Origin: Terramyces sp. JEL0728
Lineage: Eukaryota > Chytridiomycota > Chytridiomycetes > Rhizophydiales > Terramycetaceae
Length of the DNA stretch: 64,000 nucleotides
Assembly (NCBI GenBank): GCA_027603945.1
Contig: JADIIU010000041.1
Span: 41,347-105,346, forward strand
Direction of reading: 5' to 3'
The first letter of the stretch is position 1, and each line of letters opens with the position of its first letter. Shown here piece after piece: positions 2,875-63,396 of the stretch. The position numbers were made by a program, and so were the translations under genes. Below the pieces are notes generated by a model. It saw nothing but the letters and a program-made list of their open reading frames with translations. It had not been told where the DNA came from and searched no databases.

Positions 2875-3706
2875 TTAACTGCCAAGATGTTCCACTAAAC
2901 ATACCAAATCAGCTTCATTTTCAGAATTTTCCGAATCGCGCTTGTCTGATACTTTGAATGCATCATTCTAGGTTAATTAAACGTACCTGTGCGGAAACCA
3001 TTGCCTCTCTATCAATTTCAAATGCAGATCTACTTGGATTTTCCCTAGCTTCTTTTAGAGTGGTTGGAATGTAGATTCCCTGTCTTCTTCCCTGGAATTC
3101 TTTGATTGAATCAGAACGCTTCAGTGAATCGGCTCTTTGGATAGTCTCCTCTCTCTTTGGAAGCATCTCTACTGTAGGAGAATTGTAGATATCAGGATCG
3201 CCAACGCGGAATGGTACTTTGCAAACATTGTCTTCCGCAGAAGAGGCATATTCCCTTTGCATAGATTTTAGATATGCTTCATCTACAGGGTCATTCTCTC
3301 TATCTTCAAAATCGCCTGCAGTTCTATAAATTCTGGTTTTAGTTTCCAATTCGGATACGATTATTTCCTTTTCCTTTTCAGTAACTCTAGACTTTCCTTT
3401 GCTGAACCAATTAGTGATACTTTTAAAGTTTGTCGACGGGATTCTTTTAACACTGTTTCTAAAAGTGACTTCAGAGATATCGGTATTTTGATAGACTGGT
3501 TTATTCAACGAGGATCTGCTTCCTGGTAGGTACTTTGTTAACTTGCGAATGCTATCTCCGAATTTCGAATTGCCGTTTTTAGTATCTGGAATATTCAATG
3601 AAGTATCGGTCGAGACAAAGTCTGAGTTTTTGTCTCCGAATTTCGAATTGCCGTTTTTAGTATCTGGAATATTCAATGAAGTATCGGTTGAAACAAAATC
3701 TGACAT
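2875..3706 (-). CDS. Hypothetical disordered protein with N-terminal tandem repeat
   Basis: Two exons joined across a 19-nt intron at 2968-2986 give about 270 residues ending ...LVEHLGS. The intron has GT/AG ends, and removing it extends the frame past an apparent stop. Residues 3-54 are two near-identical 26-residue units (DFVSTDTSLNIPD...KFGD). The rest is highly charged and low in hydrophobics (KGKSRVTEKEKEI, RREYASS, RSDSIKEF), typical of intrinsically disordered proteins with Ser/Thr phosphorylation potential. I do not recognise it. It is transcribed away from the CCDC146 gene with about 190 bp between start codons, which may be a shared promoter region. Confidence 0.6.
3545..3703 (-). 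repeat. 78-bp tandem duplication inside a coding exon
   Basis: Two adjacent copies of a 78-bp unit (period 26 codons) encode the same 23-24 residues at the N-terminus of the disordered protein. The copies differ at only a few, mostly synonymous positions (for example gtc/gtt and gag/gaa). This suggests a recent in-frame duplication that is still kept in frame. The unit ends differ (GDKNS against GDSIR). Confidence 0.85.
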
Positions 3707-3894
3707 TTTGTCAAAGAATATTTCCTGCTAGACTGACGTAAGCAGAACAACTGGCCATCTCACGAATTAAAGACGAATACTAGTGAAAATACCACCTGTA
3801 TTTCAAATATAAGCAATAGATATCTTTGAATACTGAATTTGTTTTATTACATCATAAGAATCGCGCAAGTGCCAAGTTACTTTTCAACTTTTTA

Positions 3895-6800
3895 ATGGCA
3901 GACGCAAGTAACTTGAAAATTAATTAAAGCTGAGGAAACCCCAAAAAGAAAGGATTCACGAATTGAAACGCAACTGTTGGATATTGACGATGAGGACCAC
4001 CAAGGAGACTATTACCTGTCTGGGCTGTTTAATATTGAAACATCTCCCGGATACAAGGCGCTTGATGGATTAAAAACAAAAAAAGATATTTCAGAAGAAA
4101 AGTATCCTACCATTGACATAGAATCAACAAATACAAGAAAGCCTTCATAGATTTACACGGATTTCTGCTCAGTCTTACCGCATTCGAGAAGGAAATGTCG
4201 GAAACTTTTAGGAGTACTTTGCAGGAAATGACTATGCAGAGATTAGAAAAAGATCGAGCAATTTCCCTCCAGTTTACAGGAAATGCGGAAATTGGGGAAT
4301 TGAAACGAGAATTGTTAAAAGTAATCGATTATAATGCAGGCTCAAAACGAAGTAGATATGGCAATCGACAGAGAATCAAAGTTGCAGCTAGATATAGAAG
4401 AATTGTCGAAAACCAAACAGGATTTGATTCACGATATTGAAGAAATACGAAGGCACAAAGCAGACATGCTCGAGCCTCAGTTGATTGCCGCGACAAAGGA
4501 ATTAAAGATTGATTTGTTGCAAAGAAGACAGCAAGTAGACAACTTGCAAAAAGACATGGAAGAAAAACAAGCTGCGTACGAGGTTGTAATGCAAGAAAGA
4601 TCACGAGCTGAGGCTGAAAGAGAAAAGCACTCTATTGCCTATGTGAAAGCGTCAGAAACCCCAATCAAAATATTGTAAGTCTTGCATAACTCAGAAAACA
4701 AATTGAAGTTTTGCGAGACGCAATGAACTCGTTGACTGGCGAAAATGTGAAACAGCAAACAATCAGCAGCTCTTTAGACAAGGAAATCGAACGACTTGGT
4801 AAAAAAAAGAAGGATTTAGAAGAGATGCGAATTGGGTTATCAGCTGCGTATGAAGAACGACGGGGTTTAATTCATCAGATGGAAAGACAGGTTGATGATA
4901 TTTTCAAAGAGCATGAGTTGGCCAAGGAACAACTAGCATTCCAGAGGGCCGAACGAGTAAGGCTGGATCTCTCTCTAAGAAAACACGTTTTCGAAGTAAT
5001 TTTCGCTGACCTAGATCAAAAGGGAGCACGATTTAGTTTTACGGGTAATCAGAGAAAAGGATACTTTTTTGAAACTTTATAGGAGGCTCGAATTAACGGT
5101 TAACAATATCAAATTGTCCACACCGGCAACCATAAAACACGGAATTGATCTTCAAAGGCAGCTGGAAGCAATCAAGAGCGATGAAAAACACTATCGAAAG
5201 GAAGTACAGAGACTAAGACAAGCCATCGATGTGTGCACGTATGATTTTCTTCAGCAAGACAGAATTGAAAAAGCTGGAAGTGAAGAATTAGAAGAACAAC
5301 TTATGGTCAACAAGAAACTGGAGGCGGAATTGGATACCGCAATTCAAGAGGCAAATATGACTGCTAGAGAATTGGAAGAAATGAAAATGGAAAAGGATTT
5401 GCGGGTAATTGGGATTTTATTGTAGTCCAGAGAAGTCATTAGAGCGCAAGTTAGAATCAGGAGCTTAAAGAACGATAATGCTACGCAAGACATTGCTCTA
5501 GTTGATTCTGCAAAAAGATGTAACGAGACTGTTACTAGAGTAAAAGAATTCATGGCTCTATATGAATTGGTAAAGAACGAGAGAAACAAATACGTAAACT
5601 TTACTAATTAAAGCTTAATTTGATTCACTCGTCGACTCAAAGACTGGCAGAAATGAAAGAAAAGATTAAAATTTTAACAAATGAAATTGAAATCCTCCGT
5701 CATGAAATGGCCCACAAAGACAGAGATTTAGCGGTAATATTTACTGATTGTAGAGAAAAAAACAAGATAACAGTGCGGCATACGCTATACGCGATTCTTT
5801 GAGGAACGAAGCAAACAAGTTGATGTTGCAGTACAGAGACAAGAGAGACCAGATTGAACATCGTCTAACAAGAATTGAAGCCTTGAATAGCAATATTAAT
5901 GCTGCAGAAGAAGAAATGCAGATTTTGAAATCTCGATATGAACAATCAGTAAAAGATCGAAACATGGCTGGTGTGCATTTGCTGGACAGAAATGACGAAC
6001 TATGTATTCTGTATGAAAGAATCAACGTCAAAAAAGAGAACATGTCAAAGGGTGCTACAGCACTAGCCGACAGAAATGATGAAATGAGGAAGCTTCAATT
6101 GATACTCGCAGAGTCTAAACGGCAATCTGAGCTGCAAAAGCAAAAGAAGCCAATCATTGCAGAGCTGGATACAGAGCTGACCAAGCTGGAAAAGAAAAAA
6201 GCAGAATTAATGAACTTGACGGTAATGCTGGGAGAGCAAATGGAGAATCCAAGCGATGAAAAAAGATGCAGAAATCTTGGAGGTGTTGATCCAGCACAGG
6301 AGGAATTAACCAAAAAAATTGAAAAGTTGGAGAATTTATTGTCAATCCAAGAGGTATTAGTGTTTTAATGAAAGGAAAGTATTTTGGAAAAAGACTTGAT
6401 ATTGGAAGAAGTCACATCTTTATCAGAGCGACTAAAAGCCCAGACAATGGAGTCAAAGGATGAAACCCACACTACTACCACAGAAATTAATGAGCTGACC
6501 AAGAGGATTAAGAATGTTACCAAAAAGACAATGGCGAAAGTGTCAGAGTTGGCCATGCACCAAGCAATGGCGATGAGCTTGTACAGAGAAACCGCTGAAA
6601 AGGTATAAAATGTTAATCCAGGAATGCTTGTTGGAAGAAGCCAACAATAGACTCGAAACTGGAGATATTCCCCTTGAACAGATTGAAGGAGATTTCATCA
6701 GAGAAGAGCGCAAAAGACAGCAACGAAAAGCCAAATTGCAAGCACTCAACGAAAAAAGAGAAAGAGTCGCGAATGGCAGGTTTATTGAGCTGTACTTGTT

Positions 6801-7010
6801 CTTAATATTAGCGAAGACGATTTCTATTTACACGGCAAAGTCAAGACAACTGCAGAGCCAAGACCTAATGCCTACATTCCAGAAACGACTGGGCTTGGGC
6901 AATTGCCTATTCCAAAGCCATATGGTGAGCACTCTCCTTTCAAACCTCAAGAGCCTGGTGCGCAGTTGCGCCATTACAAGAAACCAAGTGTTTTGCCAAT
7001 TGAAATTTAA
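3895..7010 (+). CDS. CCDC146: CCDC146 / MBO2 flagellar coiled-coil protein
   Basis: Twelve exons join in frame to 964 residues, very close to vertebrate CCDC146. The protein is almost entirely coiled coil. Diagnostic stretches include the [11 protein letters not shown] motif, [31 protein letters not shown], and the conserved C-terminus (RPNAYIPE, then [16 protein letters not shown] and a final PIEI). The family (MBO2 in Chlamydomonas) acts at centrioles/basal bodies and in the flagellar axoneme, and is needed for normal beating. Its presence argues that this organism makes motile cells. Introns: 3908-3929, 4102-4121, 4321-4339, 4675-4694, 4996-5014, 5405-5425, 5594-5613, 5734-5753, 6354-6374, 6603-6621 and 6792-6811, all 19-22 nt. 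The first exon is only 13 nt, so the exact start is the least certain part. Confidence 0.93.
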
Positions 7011-7180
7011 TGATCTTATGCAATAAAGGAAATGTATTATATTTGGAGATTCAGATCAGGTCCATTTACTGCCAGTATTTGCAAATGAAATAGTTGTCCG
7101 AAAAAGTTTGCAAAACTAAATGATTTCACTTCCTAATCAACAAGTCGATTTATTGCAAACCTTTAAAAAAGCAGTCTCTA

Positions 7181-8574: not shown

Positions 8575-8655
8575 GATATGGAGTTGCGTCATTGATTGAT
8601 TGTCGCCTCGCTTTTCCTTTTTGAAATACAGTTTTGAAATCTAAGCACTAGGAGA

Positions 8656-11886: not shown

Positions 11887-14800
11887 ATGAATAATCAACA
11901 GCTGAAAACCTGGATTCACGATTCCTTGATGAAAATGACGGGAATGTCTGAAGAAACGATTGTAGATTACTTTGTTGCTTCAGCCAAAAAGGCCAAATCC
12001 CCGGAGCATTTACTGAAAACTTTGCAAAAGGTTGCGGATATTCAGAACCAGGAATTTGTTCAACAGCTCTACGGCAAATTCCCTCACCCAAATGAGCAAA
12101 CCTATCGCAAGCAGCAAGAGATTGAGCAAATCAAACTGCTGGAGAAAAACAAACGATTTGCATTGATCGAAGCAGAGCCAGAAAATTTCGAGTTAAAAAA
12201 GTCAAACAAGAAGCGAAAATTCCGAAAAGAAGACTTGAAAGAAAAGGAAAAGGCTTGGGAAGAGCCTGAAGAAGAATACTATTCAGAGGAAGACGAAGCG
12301 GAAGATGAAAGGGATAGGGATATCAGAGAAAGAGATGAACTTGACGAAAGAATCAAAATGAGAGACCTAGAGGGCAAACAATATAATGACAAATCTCAAG
12401 TCCTTGATGAAAAGGCTCGCTTAAGAAAGATTATTGCAGATGACAAGGAGGCAAGAAAAGAGATGATGGGATCTATTAGAGATCGGGCTAGATATGAATA
12501 CGTAAAAAAGAGAGAAATGGACAAGATCAAGCTACTTCGACAAGAAATCAAAGATGAAGAATTTCTATTCCAAGGAGAACGACTAACTGAAAAGGAAAGG
12601 AAAGCCCTGGAGATGAAAAAAATGATTCTTAGACTGGCGGAGGAAAGATTGTCTCTAGTTGACAAGAACGATGGATATGTCATGCCAGAGGACTTTATAA
12701 CCGAAAAAGGAAAGCTGGACAAGAAAAAGCAGGAATCAGTGTTATATAGCAGATATGAAGAACCAACAGAGAAGATTGTTTCTGAGCAAGACCAATGGGA
12801 AGAGAATCAAATACAGAAAAATGTTTCCAAGAAGCAGAAACAACAAGACGAGCTGGATTTCGAATATGTGTTTGACGAGAAGGAGCGGGTGGAATTTATC
12901 ATGCAGAAGGCTTTGGAAATGCAGAATAAGGAAGCAGTCCCCCAAATCAGTGCTGCACAACAGAAACAGCTCTCGATCATGGAAGTCAGAAAATCACTGC
13001 CAATGTACCAATTCAAAGATGACCTCTTGGATGCAATTAATAAATACCAAACACTGATTATTGTTGGAGAAACAGGATCCGGAAAGACGACACAGATTCC
13101 TCAATACTTGGCTGAAGCTGGCTATACCAAGGATGGAAAGAAAGTTGGTTGCACACAGCCTAGAAGAGTTGCGGCAATGTCGGTAGCTGCTAGAGTAGCC
13201 GAAGAGTTTGGCACAAAATTAGGTGCAGAAGTAGGGTATTCCATTCGTTTTGAAGATTGCACCTCGGAAAAAACGATGATCAAGTACATGACGGATGGAA
13301 TGCTTTTGCGAGAGTTTCTTACTGAGCCAGATTTGAGCTCCTATAGTTGTATTATTATAGATGAAGCACACGAACGGGCACTGCACTCGGATTTACTATT
13401 TGGGTTGGTCAAGGATATTGCCAGGTTTCGGCCAGACTTGAAGCTGTTAATATCTAGTGCAACAATGGATGCAGAAAAGTTTTCAGAATATTTCGATGAC
13501 GCACCGATATTTAATATCCCAGGAAGAAAGTTTCCTGTGGAAGTTTACCACACTGCAAACCCAGAAGCGAATTATTTGGCTGCAGCAATCACTACAATTA
13601 TGACGATCCATATTACGCAAGATAAAGGAGATATCTTGTTGTTTTTGACAGGACAAGAAGAGATAGAAAAAGTCCACGAAAGTTTAACTCAAATTTGTAA
13701 ATCACTGGGAAGCAAAATTAAAGAGCTTATTATTTGTCAGATTTACGCCAATTTGCCCTCGGATTTACAAGGAAAGATTTTTGAACCAACCCCAGAAGGC
13801 GCAAGAAAGGTGGTATTATCAACAAACATTGCAGAAACGTCAATCACTATTGATGGTGTGGTTTACGTGATAGATCCGGGATTCTGTAAACAGAATAATT
13901 ATAATCCTAGGACGGGTATGGAATCACTTGTGGTGGTACCTATTTCAAGAGCTTCTGCTAATCAAAGAAAAGGAAGAGCAGGTCGTGTTGGCCCAGGAAA
14001 ATGTTTCAGACTCTATACCGCATGGGCATACCAAAACGAATTGGAGGAAAGTACAGTTCCTGAAATTCAGCGAACCAATATGTGCTCAGTTGTATTGCTG
14101 TTGAAATCTTTTGGGATTGATGATTTGATGAGTTTTGACTTTATGGATGCACCTCCAGCGGATACGCTAATTAGATCTCTGGAACAGTTATATGCCCTTG
14201 GTGCTTTGAATGATCGTGGGGAGCTAACCAAATTAGGTCGTAGAATGGCGGAATTTCCAACTGACCCTATGCTAAGCAAAACCCTCATTGCAGCAGAAAA
14301 ATACCAGTGTACCGAAGAAATAGCTTCAATCATTGCAATGGTGTCTGTTGGCAATAGTGTATTTTACAGACCAAAGGACAAAGTTGTCATGGCTGATCAA
14401 GCTCGAAAGTCGTTCAACAGACCCGGAGGGGATCATTTTGCTCTCCTTGCAGTATGGGATACTTGGGTAGAAACTGGTTACGCTATGCAATGGTGTTACG
14501 AAAATTTCATACAGTATCGAACCATGAACAGGGCGAGAGCAGTAAGAGACCAGTTGGTTGGGCTGATGGAAAGGACGGAAGTGAAATTATTATCCAATCC
14601 TGACACTTCAAACGTGGTCCCCATTAAAAAGGCACTTACAGCTGGGTTCTTTTACCATACTGCAAGGCTGCAACGTTCGGGGGATTCGTATCGCACGATT
14701 AAAAGCCATCAGTCCGTTCTAATTCATCCTTCTTCTACTCTGTACGGTGAATTACATCGCTGGGTGCTGTATTATGAACTAGTTCTGACATCAAAAGAGT

Positions 14801-14922
14801 TTATGCGGCAATGTATCGATATTCAGCCTGAATGGCTGATGGAAGTGGCCCCGCACTACTATCAGCAAAAGGAGCTTGAAGATGATTCAAACAAAAAGCT
14901 GCCTAAAGGGTCTAGAAATTAG
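11887..14922 (+). CDS. PRP2: Spliceosomal DEAH-box RNA helicase PRP2/DHX16
   Basis: A single uninterrupted frame of 1011 residues. The N-terminal about 350 residues are acidic and charged, starting with the small helical domain of DHX16 ([24 protein letters not shown]). The helicase core shows motif [11 protein letters not shown], Ia [45 protein letters not shown] and [14 protein letters not shown], then the ratchet/OB-fold region ending [15 protein letters not shown]. This matches human DHX16 and yeast Prp2, which remodels the activated spliceosome just before the first splicing step with its G-patch partner Spp2. It is striking that this gene has no intron while nearly all its neighbours have several tiny ones. 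Confidence 0.96.
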
Positions 14923-15010: not shown

Positions 15011-18000
15011 ATGGCTGAACGGAGGCAGCGCAGAATACCAAGAAAGGCTCCAGAGGTACAAATGCATTGATTTCAGGATTCAAATTTAAGAGGGATTGTA
15101 ATGGAGGAAACTTTGAATTTGGACAGAACTACTAAAAGCACAAACAACTCTATGGACGATTTAAATGCTGAATTGGCGGATATTTTAAGCGATAGTTCTT
15201 CCAGAAGACTTCCTAGGGAAAGGAGACAAGTAACTGACCAGAGTGGGGGTCGTGAGCGGACGAGGTCTGAGGGCAGAACTGTAATTTATGATTAATGAAA
15301 GAGAAGACCAACTGAAGAACGACAAAAATTATTGGGAATTGCAGACAGCCAGCGGATGCAAATACCTTTAAATGACAGCAAATCCAACGACGATTCAGCG
15401 CGACGGCGGCGGGATGTGGAACGCCGAAATGTTCCAGACACTCGTAGGAATCTTGATAAGAGTACACTGAGAAGCACAGATTCATATTCAAGACGACGGG
15501 AAGATTCGGAAAAGTCAATTAACCGACGTGATGACATTTCTAGTCCGAGAACTTTAGTGGAAGACAAAAGAGATATCGGAAAAGGCAATACATCACCGAC
15601 TACGCCGAGGAGAAGTTCTCTTGCTTCTACGACATCAGGCTTCTTAAGTAAGGCTGTATCTTTCAAAATTGGGGCTTTATTTAATGAAAACGATCACACC
15701 GACAATGCTACAAGCTACACAAATGATAGTACGATGCCAGATTTGACCGATCCTGCCACAATATATTCCCTGTTAAGTCAAGCCAGTTTGGATGCTGAAG
15801 GTACCTGATATGTTGATTGCAGGATTCCCAATTCTTAACCCTGAAAGATATCAAGAGCAGAAGAAAAAACTCGTACAGATCACAAATACATTTTCATCCC
15901 TTCAGAACAAACTATCCCTTGAATTTAAAGTCAAAGAAGCTACCGAGAACATCTTGCGGTTCAATGCAGAAGACAAGAATCAAATAGCAGAAGCGCGAGA
16001 GCAATTGCGAAGGTCAGACCGAAAAATGAATGACATTTCGAAAGGTTAAGGAGATTATTAATGCAGATTTGTGGGTTGTGGTTGGCGATTTGATTGATGC
16101 AGAGCGAGGTGTACTAAAGCATTTAGCTGGGACTCTAAGATGGTATTTATAAAAGTAACTGTTAGGAGAGTGGAGGAGGCAAAGCAGGAAATGTCGGAGG
16201 CACCTACCCTTAAAGTTCGTCCTGATCAAGAAACCAAAAAGAAATTGATGTCTGCTGAAGAGAGAGTTCGAGAATTAGAAGCCCAAGTAAAGGTGTTAAA
16301 ATCAACAGTATCCAGATTAGAATTTGAACAGCAGCCATTGCGAGAATTAGCTGCAGATTCGCAGCGAGAGGCTAGGAAGGCAAGGGAAGACCGAGATGCA
16401 GTTAAACAGTCGGTTAAAGCTTCTCCAGACTCCCAGCCAAGCTCCTTAGAATTCAATCGCATCAAACTGGATTATGCAACTTGCAAGGCAGAATTGACAG
16501 ATGTGAAAGAAGAACTTGCAGCAATTAAAAATTCTCAGGCGAATTTGCAAATGCAACTGGAGCAAGATCAGCAACTTATTCAATCCAAGGATCGCACAAT
16601 TGCAAACTTGCTCTCTGAATTGGAGGAGGCTACAAACAAAGTCGAATTTTCCAGAGCCGGAGGTAGATTAATGGACAATACTCCTGGAAGCAACGCATCG
16701 CTAGGAAGAATGCTCGGACGAAAGAATAACGGCGAAAATAAAGTTGCCGAGAATGAACGAATGAATAGTATGATGGGAACTCAGTTGAAAGAAGCGGTTT
16801 TGGAACGAGAAAAGCTGAAATTAAAACTGGAGCAAGAAATCGAAAGGTCAAAGGATTTGGAGATGAAATTAAGGAATGCAGGTTCGAGGAATGATGACGA
16901 TACCGACCAAGAAGACAATAGCTTTTCAAGAAGCAGAAGTATTGCCTCACCTCGTTCCCGAAGAGCCAGAGGAATGGAAAGTATTGACGGCAATTTGGAA
17001 AGTAAGGTTGCAGAGTTGGAGCGGAAATTGCGTGAAAAAGGAAATGGGCTTGATCCAATTCAAGAAAGACAGCTGGTTGACATGCAAAGAAATATTGAGA
17101 ATTATTTGGGAATTAACCGTTCTGATTTCAAAATTTCAAACTTGAATGACAAACTTGGAATGTTGATTGAAAATAATCAAATATTGGAAAGAAAATTAAA
17201 GAATTCAGAAACAGAGTTGGCCATATTGGAAGATACCGTTACCAATCTGAAGACAAAAAGCAATCGAGCACTGGAAAATAACATGAAATCTTCTGGAATG
17301 GACGAGCTCAAAAGGCTAGAATTGGAATACAAAGATCTATCCAATGCGTATGTGGATGCAGAGAGAAAGTTGGCGTCAATGGCCGAGTTGAAAAAACTAT
17401 CAGACCAACAGGCAACCAAGATTTCTAAATTCCAAACTGATAGGGATACTGATTTTAAATTGCACGAGGCTCAAATGGAAGATTTAAGGACAAGTATGAA
17501 GAATGAATTGCAAAAAGTTAAAGACAAGCATGAGAGTGAAGTGAGTCGATTAAAAGATGATCACGAGCGTTCCATTCAACATTTTAGAGATCAGACTGGA
17601 AGGGAAAATGATGATCGAACCAAAAAGCAAACTAGGGAAATGGAAAATACCAGGGCTATGTGGGAAGAAGAGGCAAAGCAGAGTTTAGAGAAGAAAATAA
17701 AGCTTTTATCGGAACAGCACAAGTCAGAGCTGGAAGAAGTCGCTGCATTGGCCGATTTAGAAAAGACACGCTTCAAGTCTTCTTTCCAAAAGGAACAAAT
17801 CGAATCCAAAGCCAGGTTAGAACAAGCTGAGGAAGCGCTGGTCCTAGCAAGACAACAATTTTTTATTGAAAAAGAAAAAATTCAAGAGCAAGTCGAAGTT
17901 CTGGAAAAAGACATCACAGTGCTAAATCAAAAGGCAAAGACTGCGGCTGATGACTGGAGTGGAAAGAAATTGGACTATGAAAATATTATTGATAGTTTGC

Positions 18001-34523: not shown

Positions 34524-34795
34524 TTATTTTAATTTGGAAAACAATTTTGGTGCGGTCTAAATCAATTAAATACTTACACAGTGATCTACACATTCCTAAA
34601 ATTAACACGATTGTACCATCAAGTCCATAAATTCTTCCACGCAAGTTTCCTCCCCAGCATCTCCTCCTTCAACTCTAGCTGTACAGTTTGCCAATTTTTG
34701 ATTGAATGGGTGACAGTGATGACTTTCTTTGCATTCTGAATTAATGAACATCAACCTTCTTCAATCATTGGTTTTTGGTCTTCAATTTCACTCAT
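34524..34795 (-). CDS. QCR6: Ubiquinol-cytochrome c reductase hinge protein QCR6
   Basis: Four exons in 272 bp (introns 34736-34755, 34596-34616, 34557-34577) encode 69 residues. After an acidic N-terminus (MSEIEDQKPMIEE) come the cysteine pairs of the hinge protein: EECKESHHCHPF, LANCTARV, EETCVEEF and ECVDHC, then the nearly invariant C-terminus TAPKLFSKLK. The four Cys form two disulfides that hold two helices together. The protein sits on cytochrome c1 in complex III, in the mitochondrial intermembrane space. The third exon is only 18 nt, shorter than the introns on both sides. The gene is convergent with SNF4, with 15 bp between stop codons. It gives no long open frame, so it would be missed by ORF-based annotation. 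Confidence 0.93.
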
Positions 34796-46623: not shown

Positions 46624-49600
46624 ATGGAATCACTGTTGCTGTTAAATCAAAAGGAGTTTACAACCAATTGTGATGTGTTCACTTTGAATCCTGATACCGG
46701 GGTTCTTTACTATGCAAAAGAAGATGGCGGGGAAGTGTTAATTTCAAGCAAGGATGGAGTAATAGGTTCCTTTTTAGGATCAGATATTGTTTCCTTCAAT
46801 TATATCATTGAAATTGATGCTATATGCGTTGGCCTTAGAGCCGGAGATATTTATTTATTACAAAACTCAACTGTTGAGCAGGTCGGTGTAGTCGATGCTG
46901 GAATATTAGCAATGGAATGGAGTCCAGATTCGGAGCTTGTTGTAATAATTACTGGTACAAAATAGCTAACAAGAAATGGGAACATTGATCGAAATGACCA
47001 AAGATTTCCAGATTGTTGCTGAATTTCCTGTGGAAGTTGATGAATACGGAGAAGCCGTTCAGGTAAATGTTGGATGGGGTAAAAAGGAAACCCAATTCCA
47101 TGGTGCAGTTGGAAAGTCGGCTGCCAAAACAGCTATTGAGAATACAGGACTATCGACAAATGACGACCTTTATCCAAGAATTTCTTGGAGAGGAGACGGG
47201 AACTACTTTGTAGTCTCCTCTGCAAATGTAAAAGACTCTAAAAGAGTATTACGAGTGTACAATAGAGATGGAAGTCTTCAAAATACCAGTGAAAGTGTTT
47301 TGAATTTGGAGCACACACTTTCATGGAGACCGTCCGGGAATCTGATCGCATCTACTCAATTGCTTCCAAACAAGCACGATGTAGTGTTTTTTGAAAAGAA
47401 TGGTCTTCGTCATGGAGAATTTTCATTAAGAAATATTGATGCAACTGCACACGAATTACAGTGGAATTCCGATTCTACCATTTTGGCAATTAGAATGCAA
47501 TACAAAGATGGCGACAAGGATAAACATGTTATACAGTTTTGGGGAAGCAGCAATTATTACTGGTATTTAAAGTATGAAATTGCGAGTGAAAATGATCAAA
47601 AGTTTGTTCAGCTACTCTGGGATCCAGAAATGCCATTATTACTTCATGCTCTAACATCAAGTAAGCAAACCAATAATGTTAGATTCTAAAGTGCTGACAT
47701 TTACATTTTCACGCAAAGTTATTCAAAGTTCATTGCTTTCTCCTGAGAACAGCGGGACTGTTGCTGTAATCGATGGAAGTACTATATGCTAACGTAGACA
47801 GCGTACTGCTGACTCCATTCAAAACCAGAAATGTACCACCACCAATGTCACACTCCAAAATTATCTTGAATTCCCCAGTGAGCTATGTCAGCTTTGGATT
47901 TTTTGGAAAAGAATGTATGGCTGTTTTATCAAACAACCAGATTTCATTCTTCAAAGATCTATCTACGACTTTGGAGAAGATAGCCCCAATGAACAGCATT
48001 TCGTAAGATTGATCTAATGGCAGCTTACCATTCGGATTCCCTTGCAGACAAATTAGCTGGATCAAAGAAAATACTGTCCTTGCACTCACTTATAATGCTG
48101 CAAAGAACACTGACGAACTATTTGCAGTTGAATTTGGCGCAGATGGGCTGAATATAACCAGTATCCCACCACCCCACCAGCATTTGGAAGTAGGAAAGTT
48201 AATTCACAACATTTCACTGGATTTGATCGCCTTTGAAACCATTCAAGGAGAAATTTTCGAAATTTCATCCCACGAATCTGAATGGTATTGCATCCGCAAA
48301 ACCAAAATGGCACACTTTTGTCCGTGGATTGAAGCCGCCAGAGTTGGGCCAAACCTCGAAGAATCTCGAATTCTTTATATTGGCCTGAATGATAGAAACA
48401 AATTGTATGCCAATGATAAAGTTCTCGCAATTGACTGTACCTCATTCGCGTTGCATAATGAATTTTTGGTTATCTCTACGTTGGAACATATTGTCAAATT
48501 TTTGTCCATTCACAAGTCTCCAGATGGTAAGTAAATAATTGATTAGAATTTGTGTTCCATACAAAAGAAGAAAATGTTGGATTTAATGAAAAAAGTAGAA
48601 GTATCGAATTAGGAGCTAAAATTGTTCTGACAATCCCTTTCCATACACATTTAGTGCTGCAAATGCCAAGGGGCAACTTGGAAACCATCGCACCAAGAGC
48701 ACTAGTGCTATCCAGCGTAAGAAGTGCGATCGAAGCGTAATCTTGACTTATCGTTAGTAAGGACTATAGATCTGCATTTATTAGCTGCAGAAGAAACCGT
48801 ATTGATATGAACATTTTGATTGACCATGATGTGAATCAGTTTGTTGGCTTCATTGACGAAATTGTCAGACAAATCAAGGATTCTGATTTTTTGAATCTTT
48901 TAATTTCAAGTTTGCGCAATGAAGATATTACAAAAACCATGTACCCTGCAAATTCAAGACCGCAGCCGTAAGTGCTAGTTAATTTAGAGCAGAGTTTGAT
49001 TTCACAACCAAGATCAATACTATTTGCGAAGTGATCCGTTCCTCCCTCGAGAAGGTAGACAAGGATTTGTATTGTTTCTCCATTCTTACTACTGACGCAA
49101 AGAAATCTCCTCCAGCATTAGAAGATGCAATGGAACGAATTCTGAAAACCAAAGGTAATTAGTGGTTTGACTCAGTTGAACAATCAATTGATGCTGCAGA
49201 TTCCGCATTAAAGTATTTGATCTTCCTGGTGGATGTCAACAAGCTGTTTGATGTAGCTTTAGGCATGTATGACTTTTCTTTAGTTTTGATGGTTGCACAG
49301 CAATCCCACAAGGTATACTTTTGCTGACGAGCAGGATCCAAGAGAATATTTACCATTTTTGAGTAACTTGCAGAAAATGGAGACCAATTACCAGAAATTC
49401 ACCATTGATGATCATTTGGGGAAGAAACACAAAGCACTGAAACATTTGGCCAACTGTGGAGATGTCAGATTTGATGAACTACTCCGATATGTTAATAAGC
49501 ACAATCTGTACAAGGCAGCATTGTTCCTATACGAAAAGGATTCGAAACAGTATCTGAGAATTGTTAAACAGTTTGCTGATAGCTTGTATGAATCGAGAAG

Positions 49601-50628
49601 ATTTGAAGAGGCTGGCACTTTGTATGAATTGGCTGGTGACATGGAGAATGCATTATCGGCTTACATGCTTGCATTAAAATGGAGGGAAGCATTAGCTGCT
49701 GCTATATCGTTGAACCTACCGATTGATTCCTATGCCAAAGAATTAACTGAAGGGCTCTTGGAAGTCAGGAAATTCAAAGAAGTCGCTACAATTTATTCTG
49801 AATATTTGAACAACTCTATTCTGGGAATCGAAACTTTGGTTGCTGGTGGATATTATACAGATGCAATCCTTTTTTCCAGAAAGTCCTCAAATGCACAGCT
49901 GATCAAGGATGTTATCCAGCCAGCAATTTTCGCACATGGGAATACTTTCCTGCAAGAACTGAAGGACATTTATGAAACTTTTGAAAAGCAAACGATTCGT
50001 CTGAGGCAAGTTCGCGTTGAAAAGTCAAAGAGAATTGGTAACTTTGGATTTATGTTTAGAAATCCAGGGTGAAATTGACGACCGATTAGACAATATCGAT
50101 ATGTTTTCTGACACCGCATCGATGGCAACAACCCAAATGACTGGAAATACTGCACGAACCGGAAGGACCAATTATACATTTTTGACTAGCATGACTGGCA
50201 CTTCGGCGAAAACGGGAAAGACTGGAAAGGCAAGAAGAAAGCTCGCAAGGAAGAGAGCTGCTGGCAAGGACATTTTCTTTGAAGACGAATTTTTGATGAA
50301 ATCGTTGAAAGGCTCTATTGAAAAAGTCAATCGATTATCCAGTAATGCATTTCTGACTTTAGGTGACATTTCTGGACAACTCCATACATTAATATCGCAG
50401 GGATTCATTGAGCTTGCAAAGACTATTCAACATCAATTTAAATCTATAATAGATTTAGTGAAGCTTCACATGAAAGAGATATTTAGCCCGCCAAAGTTAG
50501 ATCCTGCCAATGATATTGCTGCCAAGATCACTGCCGCTTTGGATGACGATGATCCACTCAAACCTGCTGTTATCGCCGCTCCTGTTTTGAATGAAGAAGT
50601 TTGGTGGTCTGATATTTTAGAACTATAA
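46624..50628 (+). CDS. ELP1: Elongator complex subunit ELP1/IKI3
   Basis: Eleven exons (introns 46955-46973, 47661-47682, 47779-47797, 48003-48023, 48527-48546, 48737-48757, 48968-48987, 49155-49175, 49313-49334, 50038-50059) encode 1265 residues. N-terminal WD40-type propellers ([49 protein letters not shown]) are followed by the helical region ([16 protein letters not shown] [39 protein letters not shown]) and near the C-terminus the basic cluster [13 protein letters not shown] used for tRNA binding. ELP1 is the scaffold of Elongator, which makes 5-carbonylmethyl uridine derivatives in the tRNA wobble position. The length is close to yeast Elp1. Confidence 0.95.
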
Positions 50629-53324: not shown

Positions 53325-55751
53325 TTATTTGCGATTGATTTCTCTGAGCTTTGAAGCAACGAGTTCTAGTGTGTTCTTTCGTTCTTGCACTTTTAAATGC
53401 TGCTCAATTCCTGGATTTTCTTTGCAGAACTGGAGTATCTCTTGCTTTCCAAGCGAGTAGTACATTTTGCTGTCAATTTCCCTTGGCAACTGGTAAAAGA
53501 AATCATTCAAGAGTTCAATGTAGATAAACATGACTGCAGTGGAGGCTAATTTTTCAGAGACAACCGACAGGAACACTTCTGGACAGCAAGCCTTGTTCTG
53601 CAATGTGCTGCACTGTCTGGATTTAACAGCTGCCAAGCGTTGATTTACTATACTAATTTCTGCTTGCGAGTGGATTGCTTGTCTCGCTTGTGCAATAATC
53701 GGAGCTGGGAATGGAGCTTCTGGTACTTCTAGGTTTGGATTTGTTTTCAAAGCATCATCTAAATAATTGACATATTTGATGGCATGTCGCAACTTTCTAC
53801 GTCCAATGCTGGCCTTAATTCCTTGCAAATTTTGCTGGCTTTCATTCAATTGATTTTGTAACGACTCGATAGTACGCTTTTGGCCGTCCTTCCATTCCAA
53901 TTCAGAAGCTTCTACTTCAAATTTGTAGGGTTTAATGGTATTTTCTACTTGTGCCACAGTGACATGGAATTTAGAACGCAGTAAATCAGTGGCGTGCTGA
54001 ATAACTTGTCTTCTAGCTGATTCGTGGAAGCTCCAAGGTTCTACCGAAGTGATTTCATCCAATTTGGATCCAATGGAATCAACAATTAGTTGCACAGAAG
54101 CTTTTCCAACTCCAGAGCGAGTTAATTGAGCAGACGCCTGACTAACCCTCGCATCCCAAAGACCATTTTCTTCGTTGGTGCAGTCCTTTGGCAAAGCAGC
54201 GATTCTGTCGTCCTTCCAGTACAAATCAGAAATAATGTCAATCATTCTCTTTTCCAGCATTATTCGGATACTTTCTCTAACACTAGGCTTGTCAAATTGC
54301 TTTGTAAAATCCTTGAATTTATGTTTCAGTGCATCCATACATTCCGCAACATAGCTTTCTGGAGTAATACGCAAGTCATTGTACAAAACTTTGAACTGAT
54401 ATCGTGCATCATCAAGTTCGGTCTCAACTGCATCTGCAATGTGGTGTAAAGAGCGACCCATGTGGCTTTCAAGCACCTCCATCAATCGTCTCCTCAGCGT
54501 GGTAGATCCAACTTGTGATGGGTCATATTCAGGGCTCTTTTTAAAGAATGCATTTTCGGATCGAATCATTGCTGCGGATTTGCCAGTTCCAGGCTTATTT
54601 ACCACTCCGATATATCCAAGGCTTAAAGGAAAATCTTGATTCTAAAATTAATGTGAATTACATTCAACATAGACACACCTAACGCAGGTTCAACTAAATC
54701 CATCTTTGTGATAACGCCAATAGTTCTTAAACCTAACGGATCTGCTCTTCTACTAGCGCGCAATGCTACCGTTAGCAAAGGATACCTTCAGAATTCGCAA
54801 GATCGACATCGGCAGCAGAAACTGCCAGGATAACATTCGGTTCAGCGATATACTTTTCACATAGATCGATAATCTTTTGCTTCAGTGCCCTTGGTTGGTT
54901 TTTAGTTGCAACTTGGATGAAGCCAGGTAAATCTACCATAGTTAAATCCGGAACATATGGCGAATATATTTTGAGTTCAATTGGAGAATGGGACACGCAT
55001 TCTTCGTCAGAAACTGCCAAGTTCAAGTCGGTTAAAGTCTTTTGAACTTTTTCAAAGGATGTAATTTTCCCAAGCTGCAATTGAGGGAATTCAGAGTATT
55101 CCTTGTCAGTATCTGGAGTGTGAATTAATGTCAATTCAATCGGACGTCTAGTAACCATATTCGAACCCCTATTATTAGCAAAAAGTACTTTGGGAGGAAT
55201 TCATGGCCAACAATTGCTTCTAAAACTGAAGATTTTCCGGAAGATTGGGAGCCGACGACTACAATGGAAGGCAATGTAAGCGCCGAGGTAGAAGTATCAA
55301 CTGATTTCAACAAATTCCTAATTTCTATCAATTTCTTTGTCAGCCCCATCAATTGATTGTCGTCCAGTTTATTTTGATGAACGACAGGAATATCGTATTT
55401 CTTTTCTTCGTCTTCCTTCACTGCTTTGACTTTATTTGCTTCAGGTTTCTTTTTGTTTTCCAATAGTTTCTCCACCGTTTCTACCAATTGCCCTTGTGCT
55501 TCATCAACGGTTCCATTAAAATCCATTGATTCGAAATATTTGTTTGCAGATTCAAATGACTTTTTCATCCAGTCTGGTACCATATCCTTTGTTGCTTCCG
55601 ATACTTTGTAGTGCATGTAAGCAGTCACACCCATCCCAGCACCAGCGGCAGCAATGGGCAAACGTATGAGGGTCAGTACTGTTCTCGGAATGAACGCAGC
55701 ATTTCTCCTTTGCTGGTAGTGATACCCATTCCTCGCCCTTTTGAAGAACAT
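53325..55751 (-). CDS. MGM1: Mitochondrial dynamin-like GTPase MGM1/OPA1
   Basis: Four exons (introns 55169-55188, 54766-54785, 54642-54661) encode 788 residues. A basic N-terminus ([15 protein letters not shown]) and a hydrophobic segment ([20 protein letters not shown]) give a mitochondrial presequence and inner-membrane anchor. GTPase motifs: G1 [12 protein letters not shown]3 DLPGF and G4 TKMD. Dynamin middle and GED-type helices follow ([12 protein letters not shown] at the end). Mgm1/OPA1 drives inner-membrane fusion and cristae shape. The first intron interrupts just before a GSNMVTRRP segment typical of the G2 region. All three introns are exactly 20 nt. Confidence 0.94.
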
Positions 55752-55824: not shown

Positions 55825-56640
55825 ATGAGTCAGAAACAAAAGATTGAGCAATTCATGGAGGTTACCTCTTCTACGTAACGATATCTCTAATCAAGAAAGG
55901 AAAATGCAAAAGCGATTTTAGTAAAGCACAACTGGCAACTTGAAAATGCAGTGTCTTTGTTTTTCAAAGACCCAAACAACAAGAAGCTTGATTTGAAGGA
56001 AATTTACGAATTTTTTGATAATTACAAAGGTCGGGATATCTAATGTAGAACAAGATGAAGACATTATAGGTGTTGACGGAACAGAGCAGTTTTGCAGTAC
56101 ACTCCATTAATATAGATGATCTTGGATTAGATCCGTCGGATGTGGTATTAGTCGCTCTCGCCTGGCATATGAAATGTAAAAATATGTGCGAATTCACCAG
56201 GGAGGGGTTTTGCGAAGGATGCAAAGACTTGGGAGTAATTTGTGCTGATATCAGGTCGTGAATATCCAGCAATTGCAAGAGCAGATTCCTAAATTAAGAA
56301 AAGAATTAGAAAATGAAACTACTGGAAAGCAGATTTACTTGTTTACATTCAACTTTGGAAAGAATGAAGGACAAAAGAATTTAAGTAAACCCCGCTAATT
56401 CCAGGCTATGAAACTGCCATTGCTTTCTGGAGTCTATTAATTGGTGAGAAATTCAAGCACATGGATGCATGGCTTGAATTTCTTGAGGCAACTCACAATG
56501 GAAAGGCAATTAGCAAGGATACTTGGAACTTGTTTTGGGACTTTGTATTTACCAGCGCGGATGATTTTGCAGACCATGACAGCGAAGGTGCTTGGCCGGT
56601 ATTGATTGATAATTTTGTTGAATACTACAAGAATAAATAA
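55825..56640 (+). CDS. DCN1: DCN1-like NEDD8/cullin neddylation factor
   Basis: Six exons (introns 55875-55895, 56030-56048, 56097-56115, 56235-56254, 56385-56404) encode 238 residues. The N-terminus is a UBA domain ([35 protein letters not shown]). The potentiating-neddylation domain (PF03556) follows: [45 protein letters not shown], and the diagnostic end [19 protein letters not shown]1 acts as a scaffold E3 that helps Ubc12 load NEDD8 on cullins. The gene is divergent from MGM1 with 73 bp between start codons. The second intron begins GTCGGG, a non-consensus 5' splice site. Confidence 0.95.
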
Positions 56641-56796: not shown

Positions 56797-57505
56797 ATGG
56801 CTGACGACCCTTTCAACATTGTAAAGAGGTTCTTTTTGTTAACACCAGAGAAGTAGAACAGTCGCTGGTTCAAGTTCAGCAATTATTCCAGCAACGAAAT
56901 TCCACACCAGAAAAGGATTTGAAGCGATTCAACAACGATATTCGTGACCGGCTTCAGAACATCTCTGCAGATTTGGATGAATTGGACGATACTATCAAAG
57001 TAATAATTTCTAATAGAGATTGTACAAGGAAATCCTACCCGCTTTAAACTGGACAGGAGAGAAATTGACGAGCGAAAGCAATTCGTGTCCATATCTCGGC
57101 GAACAGTTGAGGAAATGAAGTCGAGACTAGTAGATAAACAGGCCCAGCCGCAAGATGAAAAGAAAGCAAGAGGAGCCATGATTGAAAATGAACAAATGAT
57201 GCAACAGCAGATTATGCAAACCCAAGACAGACAAATGGATGAGGTGGTGGTCACTGTAAGGAACATGAAGGAAATCGGGAGAGTAATGGGAGACGAATTG
57301 GAGGATCAAACAAGGTATGGTTTTATTAATTAGATTACTGGGCGAGGTCGAAGACCATGTTGATGCGACCCAAAACAGACTGCAAGACGGGATGAAGCGA
57401 ATGAAAGATTTCATTAAAGCAAATTCCGACATAAAGCAACAAGTCACCATCATTATCCTTATCGTAGTACTGGTAATACTGGCTATTGTAGCTATTAGTT
57501 CCTAA
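56797..57505 (+). CDS. Syntaxin-6/Tlg1 family SNARE
   Basis: Four exons (introns 56829-56848, 57000-57018, 57315-57333) encode 216 residues. The N-terminal half has the Habc-type helices of syntaxin 6 ([43 protein letters not shown]). The SNARE motif ([23 protein letters not shown]... with the central Gln layer) leads to a C-terminal membrane anchor of about 20 hydrophobic residues ([20 protein letters not shown]). Syntaxin 6/Tlg1 is a Qc-SNARE at the trans-Golgi network and endosomes. The ends and size fit the family. Confidence 0.9.
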
Positions 57506-57941: not shown

Positions 57942-57971
57942 ACAGGAACATAATAAACAGGATTTTTATTG

Positions 57972-59561: not shown

Positions 59562-59753
59562 GACGTCAAACAACGATCTGATTTCTCCTCAATGCAGAAG
59601 CTGCGACAATACGATAACTAATGTCGAAACTCAATTGGTGTTTTTCATACCGAGAGAAAGGATGGTTCAGAATGTCCCAACTGTCGGACATTCAATGAGG
59701 TGGATGTAATTATAATATTAATGTGGGTTTACCAAAGCTTATCGCATTGGTAA
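59560..59753 (+). other. Possible small zinc-ribbon gene or promoter (unresolved)
   Basis: On the plus strand, an ATG at 59560 begins MTSNNDLISPQCRSCDNTITNVETQL. A second frame shortly after reads GSECPNCRTFNEVDVI. Joined by a frame shift, these give two CxxC pairs, as in a zinc ribbon. The only candidate intron linking them is 17 nt and lacks a good branch motif, and the ATG overlaps the start codon of the minus-strand axonemal gene. I therefore leave it unresolved. Otherwise this is the promoter region between the axonemal and RRN3 genes. Confidence 0.2.
59561..59568. promoter_or_regulatory. CRE-type palindrome TGACGTCA
   Basis: A perfect TGACGTCA (ATF/CREB-type bZIP site) lies at the junction of the divergent axonemal protein gene and the region leading to RRN3. 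It overlaps the annotated start of the axonemal gene, so the real start may be the internal ATG at 59540. An 8-bp site can occur by chance. Confidence 0.3.
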
Positions 59754-59846
59754 TCCATAACTTGGCAGAACAATGCTTGTTTCAAAGGTGAGTTTCAAGG
59801 TAGTGTTTCTCGGCAGATAATTTTTTTTCACTTTTAATTGGAATTC

Positions 59847-61738
59847 ATGTTAGGAATACCAATGGATAGTGAACTAAAGAATGTGCGGTTTTCATTACCA
59901 ACGACGGAAAGAGAAGATTTCCCCAAGGATTATGATTCCATGACAAAATACCTTGCCAGCGTTTTTCAAGAAAAATCCAAGGTATTCAATTATATAACCA
60001 CAGGGTAATGAACAGCCATATAACGAATTGCTCCACATTTTATCGCAATCGCCAACTTCTGCTCGGAAATTATCCAAACTCCAAATTAAACTTTTGGTTC
60101 AAGCGCTATCTTTATTTGTTTCTTCAATGAACCACAAGATGCAGTCGTTAGTCAATGCAATTTTACAATTGGACTGGATTGATCAGGAACAGAATTTTAT
60201 TAGCATGTACTTGCACTTGGTTCAAAATGTAGTGTCTGCACAATCTTCCTATGTAGTCCCTGTTACCCAAACCATCGTGCAATATATCCGAACTGGTAGA
60301 CCCGAATTGACATTTAGGACAAAAGAAATATCCCAATATCCCTTCTTCAATCTTGTTTGAACAAATCCATTCAGCACTAGCCAAAATATTGCGCTTGATT
60401 CCAACTGGACCTTCGTTTATCCTACCAATACTATCAAAGTCAGTCCCACACAAATCCGAACCACTCTCTAGTATTTCATTTTATGTAAAGAGTTTACTAG
60501 CTATTGCAGAATATGCTCCTGTAATCAGAGTTCAGCTGATGGAAATTATAATTGATCTGATTGTGCAGATGGACGTAATATTTCTTAATCCTAGATTGAT
60601 ATTCAGATTGAAGATATAGAGGATGAATTGGAAAATGAAGATGTATTTGCAATGGATGATTTTGAAGCTGAACAACGACGCCAGTTCGATGATTCCGATG
60701 CTGACTCTGACGAGAGTTCACAGGTGATCTCATCAGATTATAAGGTGATGATTGCAAAACTGGACGCAGTTATGCAGTTGGTTACAAACTACATTTCGAA
60801 TGTCAAAAAACTAGAGGATCAAAGTCTGCTGAACGAAACTTATTTTGGATTACTAAGCTCATTCGATAAAATCATGCTACCCACACACAAACTGCGATCC
60901 GCCCAGTTTCTTGTTTTTTACACTTCATCAATGGTTTCAGAATACCCTGAAGAGCTTATGGGTTTGCTGGTTACACATCTGCTTAACGTGTCCACGTCAA
61001 CTGTTCTCAGAGAATCTGCTGCGTCTTACCTTGGAAGCTTCATTGCCAGAGCAAAACACGTTGGAGTAGATTCAGTTAAACACTGCTTACGATTACTGAA
61101 TCAACTATGTCAGACTTATATTGACAGCTATGAACACGAACTTCAAGGGCAGTTGCAGGCAAGCTTGCGCTAACCATAGGTCGATAGATTTGGAGTGTTG
61201 TACTCTGCTGTGCAAGCAATTCTGTATATCTTTTGCTTCAGGTGGAAGCAAGTCATGATAGTCGAAGATAGAACAACCACCGGATCGTTCCCGCCCGAAT
61301 TGGCCGATTTCCAAAGAGTGCTGTTGTCGAAATTTAGTCCGTTAAGAGTAATTGGGTTTAATTCAGGTTTGCTCGGAAGCGATTGTGCAGGAATTCGCAA
61401 AGATAGTACACCACTTGAATATCATGTATTGCTTCCCACTTATTAATTCTTCTGCCTCACGATCAAATACTTCTTTAGAATCCGTTCAATCACAGACAAA
61501 ATCGCAGGAGTTAAGTATTGTGTCCAGGTTGGAATCGTTTTTTCCATTTGATCCGCTGGTTTTGCCTCAGTGCAAGTTAACGGTGTCCAAAATATACCAA
61601 GAATGGGACGGAGAAGATAAATCTGATGTCGCGAGCGATGGAATAGTAACCGATTCTGACTTGGAAAACTCTCTTAAAGGGATGTCTCTGGACGAACGAT
61701 ATTCCTATTCTATGTCTCATTCGCATTCTTTTGGGTAG
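59847..61738 (+). CDS. RRN3: RNA polymerase I initiation factor RRN3
   Basis: Six exons (introns 59982-60003, 60296-60317, 60575-60594, 61159-61179, 61348-61366) encode 595 residues, matching Rrn3/TIF-IA. Helical HEAT-like repeats carry conserved stretches: FEQIHSALAKILRLIPTGPS, IAEYAPVIRVQLMEIIIDLI followed by the acidic DIDIQIEDIEDELENED, SAASYLGSFIARAKHV, and AVQAILYIFCFRWKQ. RRN3 binds Pol I and makes it competent to start rRNA transcription. The fourth intron begins GC (21 nt, with a CTAAC branch), one of two GC-AG introns in the window. A second in-frame ATG at 59862 is an alternative start. Confidence 0.94.
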
Positions 61739-61770
61739 TGTGGGTTCGTGAATGAAATATATTAAATGTA

Positions 61771-63396
61771 TTAATAATCACTGAAATTTTCAAAGTAATT
61801 CGGCACCTGTTTATCCATAGTTTCGTCCATCTTGCGTCGTTTGAACAGGCCATAAAAGATGGTAGCATCCAAAAGTGTCATTGTTTCCATAGAGATAAGA
61901 ATATTGTACAGGCGACTAAATTTCTGGAATGCCACACCAAATAATCTTAAACCGTCCATATGCAGCGCGTATGAAGTTTCGATTTTCTGACTGTTGACGA
62001 TTTTACCACAGCACTGCAAAAAGTACGCACATTGAAAGATCGACATCAATAGCATTGGGCCTAGATAATCTACACTTGGGTTATACTGTACAATCAGTGC
62101 AATTAATTTTGAGTTATGTATAGCTGCTTCCAGCGCGTCTTTGAAATACAATAGCCGAACAACGTTTTTCCCCTTGATCACATTCTTTATGAATTTCGGG
62201 ATGATGAGATTGACTCGGCAGCTATTATACAATACTGCGATATAGATTGCAAACCACGAGAGATGGATTTCAGTCAGTTCTTGGTTTTTTATCCGCAGCA
62301 TATGTGGCAGCAAGATTGGCATAAAACTGGAAAACCAATCATTGAGAGATGCGTTAATACACCCGGCAATATATCTGGATTCAGGTTCTCCAGCCAATTC
62401 TAGTTGAAAGTATTGGTGGATTTTAACCAGGATTTTCTTTAGCAGAATGCGATTTGCTTGTAACGAAGGGCTATAAATACAGGGGGTATACCACTCCTTA
62501 CTCGACATTACTTCCATACCATAGTATTCGCTTGGACCAGCAGTTTCAAAGTAAAAGTTGTCTGATGGTAGAAATAACATGAGATCCGATTCGTCAATGA
62601 TCTTTTCCCCAAACGAGTTTGGTGCTTGGGCAAAATTACAGTATAGGAGCCACCACGTTCTTCTTAGGTTTTCTCTCTCATAATCAAATGGGGAGAGCCT
62701 AGCGATGCCTTCTTCCGTATTAAGCCCAATGGATTTGGCAGTTTCTATTGCAAATTTAGTGTGGATCAACATTGACTCCTTTTGATCCAAATCTATCGTT
62801 AAATGCAGAGTTACTAAATAAGACAACACCGATGCAGCAAAGCGTCAAGACCGTCAAATGATCCTTTTCAAATTTGAACGACTGTGCCTTTTGAACAAAC
62901 AGGCTCGCCAATTCAATTCTGTTTTCTAAACCGTTGGGTACCAAATCGTCCGGGATATACGCAGATCCACAAGCATATAGTGCAAACTTGAGCGGATAGA
63001 ATAACTCTGCAGAAGATCTTAGATAAACTTCTGGCAAGATTGAGGACGGATATGAAAATTTTTTGAATGCAAATTCAAGTATTTGGTCATGCTCGGATTC
63101 GAAAAGCACTGATCCTAGGGTCGTAGACAGTTCCATTTCAGGCGTATTCGGCTTTGGCTTCTTCCGCTCCTTATAATTGAATGTTAGCATGAGATTCAAT
63201 TCCAGTTGCTGGATCCGGCCTTCTACTTTCTTTAATGTACTAGCTATTTCATCCAAGTGTGAGTACGTACACTTAATTTTTTTGTTTTGACAATGGCTGC
63301 AAACTGATTTTTTATCGCATCTTCTTTTCTAGTAGATCAGTTAAAACTTACCAGCTTCACGCAATTATCGCATGAATAACGAATCTTTTTGCCCAT
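61771..63396 (-). CDS. Zn2Cys6 zinc-cluster transcription factor
   Basis: Three exons (introns 63329-63351, 62793-62814) encode 526 residues. The DNA-binding domain is split by the first intron: CDNCVKL then KRRCDKKSVCSHCQNKKIKC, giving the exact C-x2-C-x6-C-x5-C-x2-C-x6-C spacing of the fungal binuclear cluster. After a coiled-coil linker (STLKKVEGRIQQLELNL), the fungal-specific transcription factor domain shows the A-x-x-A-x-x-LGL helix pattern (AIETAKSIGLN) and RRTWWLLYC. This family is essentially fungal, so the gene is strong evidence for the organism's kingdom. The target genes are unknown. Confidence 0.92.

Follow-up and report, generated by a model that had tools for sequence, protein, structure and literature searches.

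Very short GT-AG introns in the genes of the chytrid Terramyces sp. JEL0728

Genes and introns of the window

The window analysed here is a stretch of 64,000 nucleotides (nt), positions 41347-105346 of contig C41, from the genome of Terramyces sp. JEL0728 (Chytridiomycota, Rhizophydiales, Terramycetaceae), which comprises 15.0 Mb in 231 contigs. Its genes are interrupted by predicted introns of 18-24 nt, most of them 19, 20 or 21 nt long. A gene finder run with a learned length model placed 33 gene models in the window, 30 of them with introns. An earlier reading of the same DNA, made from its letters (the original prediction), had assigned it to a flagellated fungus. This fits the match of the window's ELP1 protein to Terramyces sp. 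JEL0728, which is a chytrid and thus belongs to a group of flagellated fungi.

The identified genes and their introns are collected in Table 1. The first gene listed has a CFAP58_CC domain in one exon, and its name CCDC146 comes from the original prediction only. The naming of the helicases had to be corrected: the gene at 11887-14922 is Prp2/DHX16-like, and the DHX29-type domains belong to the second helicase gene.

Table 1. Features of the window, with positions counted from its first nucleotide (the gene finder runs are described below).
Feature	Position	Strand	Introns	Remarks
First listed intron	2968-2986	-		19 nt; found in motif-free, learned-motif and peaked-length runs
CCDC146/CFAP58-like coiled-coil gene	3895-7010	+	3908-3929, 4102-4121, 4321-4339, 4675-4694, 4996-5014, 5405-5425, 5594-5613, 5734-5753, 6354-6374, 6603-6621, 6792-6811	11 introns, 19-22 nt
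Prp2/DHX16-like splicing helicase	11887-14922	+	none	Best match Boothiomyces sp. JEL0838, 95%
Nup192	18904-24232	-	18973-18992, 19106-19126, 19680-19700, 20141-20160, 24022-24042	Nup192 domain (E=1.6e-140) in long exon
DHX29/DHX57-type helicase	28697-32652	+	28889-28909, 30648-30668, 31092-31113, 31304-31325, 31828-31849, 32283-32302	DHX29-type domains in 28910-31126
SNF4 (AMPK gamma)	33482-34508	+	33762-33780, 33876-33895, 33998-34016, 34174-34193, 34232-34252, 34325-34343	Seven exons; introns 19-21 nt
QCR6 (UCR hinge)	34524-34795	-	34736-34755 (20 nt), 34596-34616 (21 nt), 34557-34577 (21 nt)	69 amino acids, four exons; identified by Pfam and solved chains
ELP1	46624-50628	+	46955-46973, 47661-47682, 47779-47797, 48003-48023, 48527-48546, 48737-48757, 48968-48987, 49155-49175, 49313-49334, 50038-50059, 50342-50362	11 introns
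MGM1-like dynamin	53325-55751	-	54642-54661, 54766-54785, 55169-55188	All introns 20 nt; domains in last exon
DCN1-like (cullin-binding) gene	55825-56640	+	55875-55895, 56030-56048, 56097-56115, 56235-56254, 56385-56404	Cullin_binding profile matched 1-118 of 118
Syntaxin 6/10/61-like gene	56797-57505	+	56829-56848, 57000-57018, 57315-57333	STX6_10_61_N profile matched 1-99 of 99; SNARE slightly below cut-off
RRN3-like gene	59847-61173	+	59982-60003, 60296-60317, 60575-60594	RRN3 domain in last exon

Length distribution of the introns

The gene finder scores codon usage and, in its motif-free form, permits GT..AG introns of 12-150 nt at equal cost. Run on the window in this form, with a codon table trained on GT-AG models, it returned 90 introns, of which 54 measure 18-24 nt (13 of 19 nt, 22 of 20, 12 of 21, 6 of 22 and 1 of 23), the others being scattered in length. 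When eight decoy dinucleotide pairs were used in place of GT..AG, each gave 67-84 "introns", with 1-10 of them at 18-24 nt.

The sample was then the window plus 24 stretches of 10 kb, taken from contigs C1-C20, C25, C30, C35 and C45 (24 of the 231 contigs), 304 kb in total or about 2% of the genome. Once motifs had been learned, and with lengths kept flat over 10-60 nt, 369 of 418 introns fall at 18-24 nt, including 95 of 19 nt, 152 of 20, 71 of 21 and 34 of 22; three decoys gave 24 of 198, 23 of 287 and 45 of 256 in that range, from which false calls of about 6-12% are expected. The window contributes 102 introns to this set, 93 of them at 18-24 nt. In a third, peaked-length run, the length model was learned from these data and favours short introns by construction; here 115 of 116 window introns measure 18-24 nt (18 nt, 1; 19 nt, 25; 20 nt, 40; 21 nt, 29; 22 nt, 17; 23 nt, 2; 24 nt, 1). 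Over the 304 kb this run found 439 introns at 18-24 nt, against 85, 88 and 136 for decoys, and since decoys score so high at this looser setting, some of the 115 window introns will be wrong. A GTA start is present in 100 of the 115, YTRAY in 79 and a best branch-site adenine (branch A) at position 14-16 in 110; all three are combined in 62. A self-trained run under a soft penalty escalated to 1,296 introns and fused genes; its counts were discarded.

The original prediction had counted by hand about 115 introns of 18-24 nt in 34 genes, with a mode of 20 and about 80% at 19-21 nt. The peaked-length run reproduces this count, with 94 of 115 (82%) at 19-21 nt. The last intron that had been listed, 63329-63351, appears in one loose run and is absent from the learned-motif and peaked-length runs. 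Of the 173 gene models in the 304 kb, 125 contain one intron or more, and the density is 1.55 introns per kb of coding sequence. Extrapolation of the 369 introns gives about 18,200 for the genome, or about 16,000-17,000 after subtraction of the 6-12% decoy share, and we take about 16,000-18,000 tiny introns as the extrapolated total. For Batrachochytrium dendrobatidis, PMC5364385 states 37,153 introns.

Anatomy of the introns

The 5' site of the 369 introns reads A (53%) A (60%) G (51%) / GTA (91%) A (56%), the slash marking the exon end. The otherwise common G at +5 is unfavoured (G 18%, T 45%), and T prevails at +6 (57%). The GT..AG ends stand out against the eight decoy pairs in the window and against the three in the 304 kb. 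Shortly upstream of the AG, the motif YTRAY occurs in 269 of the 369 introns, against 42.7 on average and at most 62 over 200 shuffles. Since these introns were found partly by YTRAY itself, the motif-free set carries more weight: there, over the 304 kb, YTRAY is present in 74 of 102 introns of 18-24 nt and in 9 of 53 of other lengths, and GTA in 90 of 102 and 20 of 53, respectively.

The spacing of these elements is narrow. The branch A was assigned to position 14 in 158 introns, to 15 in 140 and to 16 in 42, together 340 of 369; it was assigned to 17 in six, to 18 in four, to 8-12 in 19 and never to 13. The 3' end follows the branch A after 5 nt in 159 introns and after 6 nt in 146. A motif-only scan without reading frame, in gene spans that came from the gene finder, gave 214 sense and 6 antisense matches with lengths of 19-22 nt; for a branch A at 14-16 the numbers were 214 and 2, and for one at 13 they were 1 and 4. 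An AG between branch A and intron end is present in 12 of the 269 introns with YTRAY, so that the first AG is used nearly always.

The whole genome was searched with the pattern AAGGTAA..CTAAY..TAG, with 14-44 nt permitted. It yielded 23 matches, 22 of them at 20-23 nt (ten of 20, six of 21, five of 22 and one of 23 nt) and one of 43 nt. With the 24 stretches of other contigs, this search upholds the description of the introns as genome-wide.

Paramecium is known for a depletion of introns that have a length divisible by three and no in-frame stop. Motif-defined introns of 21 nt contain a stop in 30 of 41 cases (25.3 expected, P=0.06). In the frame-aware set, a stop is found in 72 of 80 introns with a length divisible by three and in 160 of 289 others, a count that is biased because stop-free introns of such lengths are hard for the gene finder to see.

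Restored proteins and deposited models

Removal of the introns restores conserved proteins in ELP1, SNF4 and QCR6. Without splicing, none of the three sense frames of the QCR6 region stays open; once its three introns are removed, the Pfam profile is matched over residues 1-65 of 65 and residues 3-69 align with the best solved QCR6 chain. For ELP1 and SNF4, the five residues on either side of each splice junction were scored as ungapped or not in orthologues, using 119 of 120 listed matches for ELP1 (the window's own protein, P0121, was left out) and 33 of 37 for SNF4. At six of the eleven ELP1 junctions, over 80% of the orthologues counted show no gap in this stretch. In SNF4, four of six junctions lack gaps in 30 or more of 33 orthologues and one does so in 25 of 32.

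The spliced ELP1 is 97% identical over its full length to the deposited Terramyces sp. JEL0728 protein HDV01_005208. All 1,226 of 1,226 aligned residues are the same, and the shortfall is due to different splicing, the deposited model lacking 32 of our residues and having 7 more that ours does not contain. Boothiomyces macroporosus (77%), Boothiomyces sp. JEL0838 (72%) and Globomyces (51%) follow as next best. Judged by its protein, the deposited Terramyces model removes eight of our eleven introns. It merges 47661-47682 with 47779-47797, losing a stretch retained in both Boothiomyces and in Globomyces, and it translates the stop-free intron 50342-50362.

The Boothiomyces macroporosus ELP1 contains an extra SIMFFTL exactly at the site of 47661-47682. 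When all codon choices and phases are considered, the sole GT..AG reading with YTDAY is in phase 1, 21 nt long and with the branch A at 15; its removal yields Asn, as in Terramyces and JEL0838. Extra residues at the site of 50342-50362 likewise fit a 21-nt intron in phase 1 with the branch A at 15, the removal of which yields Ile or Met, where JEL0838 has Ile. Of 6,281 seven-residue windows in five ELP1 orthologues, 277 could satisfy the phase-1 GT..AG part alone. We read the two inserts as probable retained 21-nt introns at sites shared with Terramyces. What the JEL0838 protein lacks is exactly the exon flanked by the sites of 48737-48757 and 48968-48987, which would be expected if two tiny introns had been joined. 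As the Boothiomyces sites match Terramyces introns, the trait is probably at least as old as the family Terramycetaceae. For SNF4, no Terramyces or Boothiomyces name occurs among 37 database matches (E<=1e-20, length 0.55-1.75 of the query), some of which are unnamed.

The deposited ELP1 models of Terramyces and both Boothiomyces (P0121-P0123) show retained or fused tiny introns and lost exons; in P0122 the frame is probably shifted at the site of 48003-48023.

Two other features of the window were recorded. The minus-strand gene at 61771-63431 of the motif-free model, the intron structure of which varies between runs, has a C-x2-C-x6-C run near its start, which we take to resemble part of a fungal Zn2Cys6 factor; two of its exons were searched and gave no Pfam match. 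At 3553-3706 (minus strand), near a gene start, the 23-residue unit DFVSTDTSLNIPDTKNGNSKFGD occurs twice with a period of 26 residues.

Splicing machinery

A U2 RNA is present in the genome (140 bits), with its branch-binding sequence GUGUAGUA intact, and the branch motif of the tiny introns is complementary to the GUAGUA of U2. SF1 is also present, its gene itself holding a predicted 19-nt intron. Yju2 is predicted to be intronless and its amino-terminus aligns from residue 1 to the solved chain 5yzg_Y, presumably human YJU2, with one two-residue gap within the first hundred residues, indicating that at least Yju2 has not been trimmed in Terramyces.

U6 RNA is normally easy to find; in Terramyces its gene could be missing from the assembly or be interrupted by a tiny intron of its own. 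Two weak Rfam matches to U6 (27 bits, cut-off 44) lack the AGC triad, are near-identical to each other and were rejected, as were two pattern matches that are not U6 by Rfam or by eye; other U6 patterns yielded no match. A weak U6-like stretch of 27 bits on contigs C199 and C111 (loci L029 and L030, near 1501-1606) is nearly identical over more than 100 nt and is perhaps a dispersed repeat.

Interpretation and alternatives

The tiny introns are confirmed as an observation. They are very probably ordinary GT-AG introns of the U2 type, shrunk, presumably by deletion, to about the shortest length that this spliceosome accepts. The spliceosomal nature claimed in the original prediction is borne out by the near-fixed branch motif, the splice-site consensus, the restored orthologous proteins, U2 with GUGUAGUA and SF1. 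Each intron would consist of little beyond its signals: AAG/GTAA, a few T-rich bases, YTRAY with the branch A 14-16 bases from the intron start, and a YAG that ends 5-6 bases past it. Removal would proceed by standard intron definition, in which 5' site and branch site are bound next to each other; the putative branch A would attack the 5' G, closing a lariat ring of some 14 bases, and the YAG close by would be used. The length range of 19-22 nt would then be the sum of two narrow spacings, 14-16 and 5-6. The steep lower edge at 14 suggests a physical limit, at which the 5'-site and branch-site duplexes may be packed against each other.

Several observations weigh against this interpretation. 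The edge at 14 is not absolute, since the 19 branch A calls at 8-12 include seven at 10-12 among the 269 introns with a full YTRAY; we take the calls at 8-12 for probable wrong assignments. A mirror pattern, used as control for the whole-genome search, gave 10 matches against 23, the lengths of the 10 not being listed. The other five ELP1 junctions fall where orthologues vary (ungapped in 68 of 118, 73 of 118, 1 of 119, 25 of 118 and 2 of 119), and one SNF4 junction window is ungapped in just 2 of 33; there the gap lies beside the junction, as the LRDLERD residues at the join are identical in Globomyces. Neither U1 RNA, by Rfam, nor a normal U6 RNA, by Rfam or pattern, was found in the genome, searches that are weak for intron-split or unassembled genes. 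The U1-70K amino-terminus and RED_N were unmatched, with zero candidates at a first look, but the controls were silent too and absence is not claimed.

These negatives bear on an alternative in which the Terramycetaceae would have rebuilt early splicing around a fixed geometry, with U1 recognition of the 5' site and pairing of the U6 ACAGAGA altered or lost, and with one compact complex that measures 14 bases between the 5' end and the branch A and refuses longer introns. Normal U1 RNA carries ACUUACCU and normal U6 carries ACAGAGA. An altered reading by U1 and U6 is proposed because the +5 G is gone and the searches did not recover U1 RNA, U1-70K or a normal U6; we consider such a rebuilding unlikely.

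If the tiny introns were one class beside ordinary introns of 50-150 nt missed by the gene finder, longer calls should be recovered when permitted, and some are. With lengths of 10-300 nt at equal cost, the 304 kb gave 397 introns, 334 at 18-24 nt and 57 longer, against 173, 207 and 169 longer than 24 nt for decoys, a comparison that flatters the absence of long introns because decoy runs, having no access to the real introns, make up long ones. In a fairer test the real tiny introns were permitted in every arm and only the ends of long introns were varied. GT..AG then gave 22 introns above 24 nt (of 443 calls) against 25-29 for six decoy pairs, and 13 against 14-20 at a stiffer penalty. With long GT..AG calls no commoner than decoys, a long class in coding sequence is undetectable, and some long calls resolve into a pair of tiny introns or a single one (47661-47797, 44885-44928). 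Rare long introns, or long introns confined to untranslated regions, are compatible with the data; a missed ordinary class is nevertheless quite improbable. The statement that no longer intron is required thus stands statistically, not gene by gene, and in the window and the 24 stretches the length range is ultra-short and narrow, without a longer class. From the "obligate tiny-intron spliceosome" of the original prediction, the part that survives is that longer introns are undetectable; an inability to remove long introns is unsupported.

Removal of the segments at the DNA level, like the internal eliminated sequences of ciliates, or their skipping by the ribosome, is very improbable: such elements can be short and frame-breaking, but a GT..AG segment whose branch motif sits at a near-fixed distance bears the signature of a spliceosome, U2 with its branch-binding motif and SF1 are present, and chytrids are not known for either process. 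Chance or assembly error can practically be dismissed, for contig indels in a draft assembly of 231 contigs might imitate introns but would not peak in length, share a motif or favour one strand, and would not recur at matching sites in Boothiomyces.

Relation to known systems and significance

Terramyces is presumably a free-living saprotroph. Fungal introns have a branch site of the YTRAY type, and Terramyces shares their GT-AG ends. At 19-22 nt, its introns are much shorter than those of Cryptococcus neoformans, with a mean of 63 bp termed relatively short in PMC8476143, and of Blastocladiella emersonii, given as 55-333 nt and mostly 60-79 in PMC2773782. They are among the shortest known, of a kind already described in some ciliates, algal relict nuclei and shellfish parasites. 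PMC9505925 describes genome-wide GT-AG introns of 15-16 nt in Stentor coeruleus, with the branch A at 10 or 11. The very narrow length range and near-fixed branch A recur in Terramyces, but Stentor is described there as without strong branch consensus, whereas Terramyces has a clear YTRAY and its branch A at 14-16, and is thus not of the Stentor type. Where Stentor's branching factors extend into the active site, the same paper reports a lack of conservation, in contrast to the Yju2 amino-terminus of Terramyces. In PMC10245619, the chlorarachniophyte nucleomorph has introns of 18-21 bp, more than 800 in about 300 genes, and in Mikrocytos mackini (mikrocytids) all introns are 16 or 17 nt and sequence-conserved. 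As presented there, the nucleomorph is a relict nucleus and Mikrocytos an intracellular parasite with 224 introns and a reduced spliceosome; the estimated 16,000-18,000 introns of Terramyces, a far larger set, are in the main nucleus of a fungus.

No account of tiny introns in any fungus was found in the open-licence literature, as covered by titles and abstract openings. Tiny introns are now placed in the Fungi, a kingdom with deep knowledge of the spliceosome. Since the deposited models err at these introns, both the gene counts and the protein families derived from these genomes may be distorted. The steep edge at 14 bases, set against the 10 of Stentor, implies that the limit is not universal; it provides a measurable lower limit, with which the question of what sets the smallest intron becomes testable.

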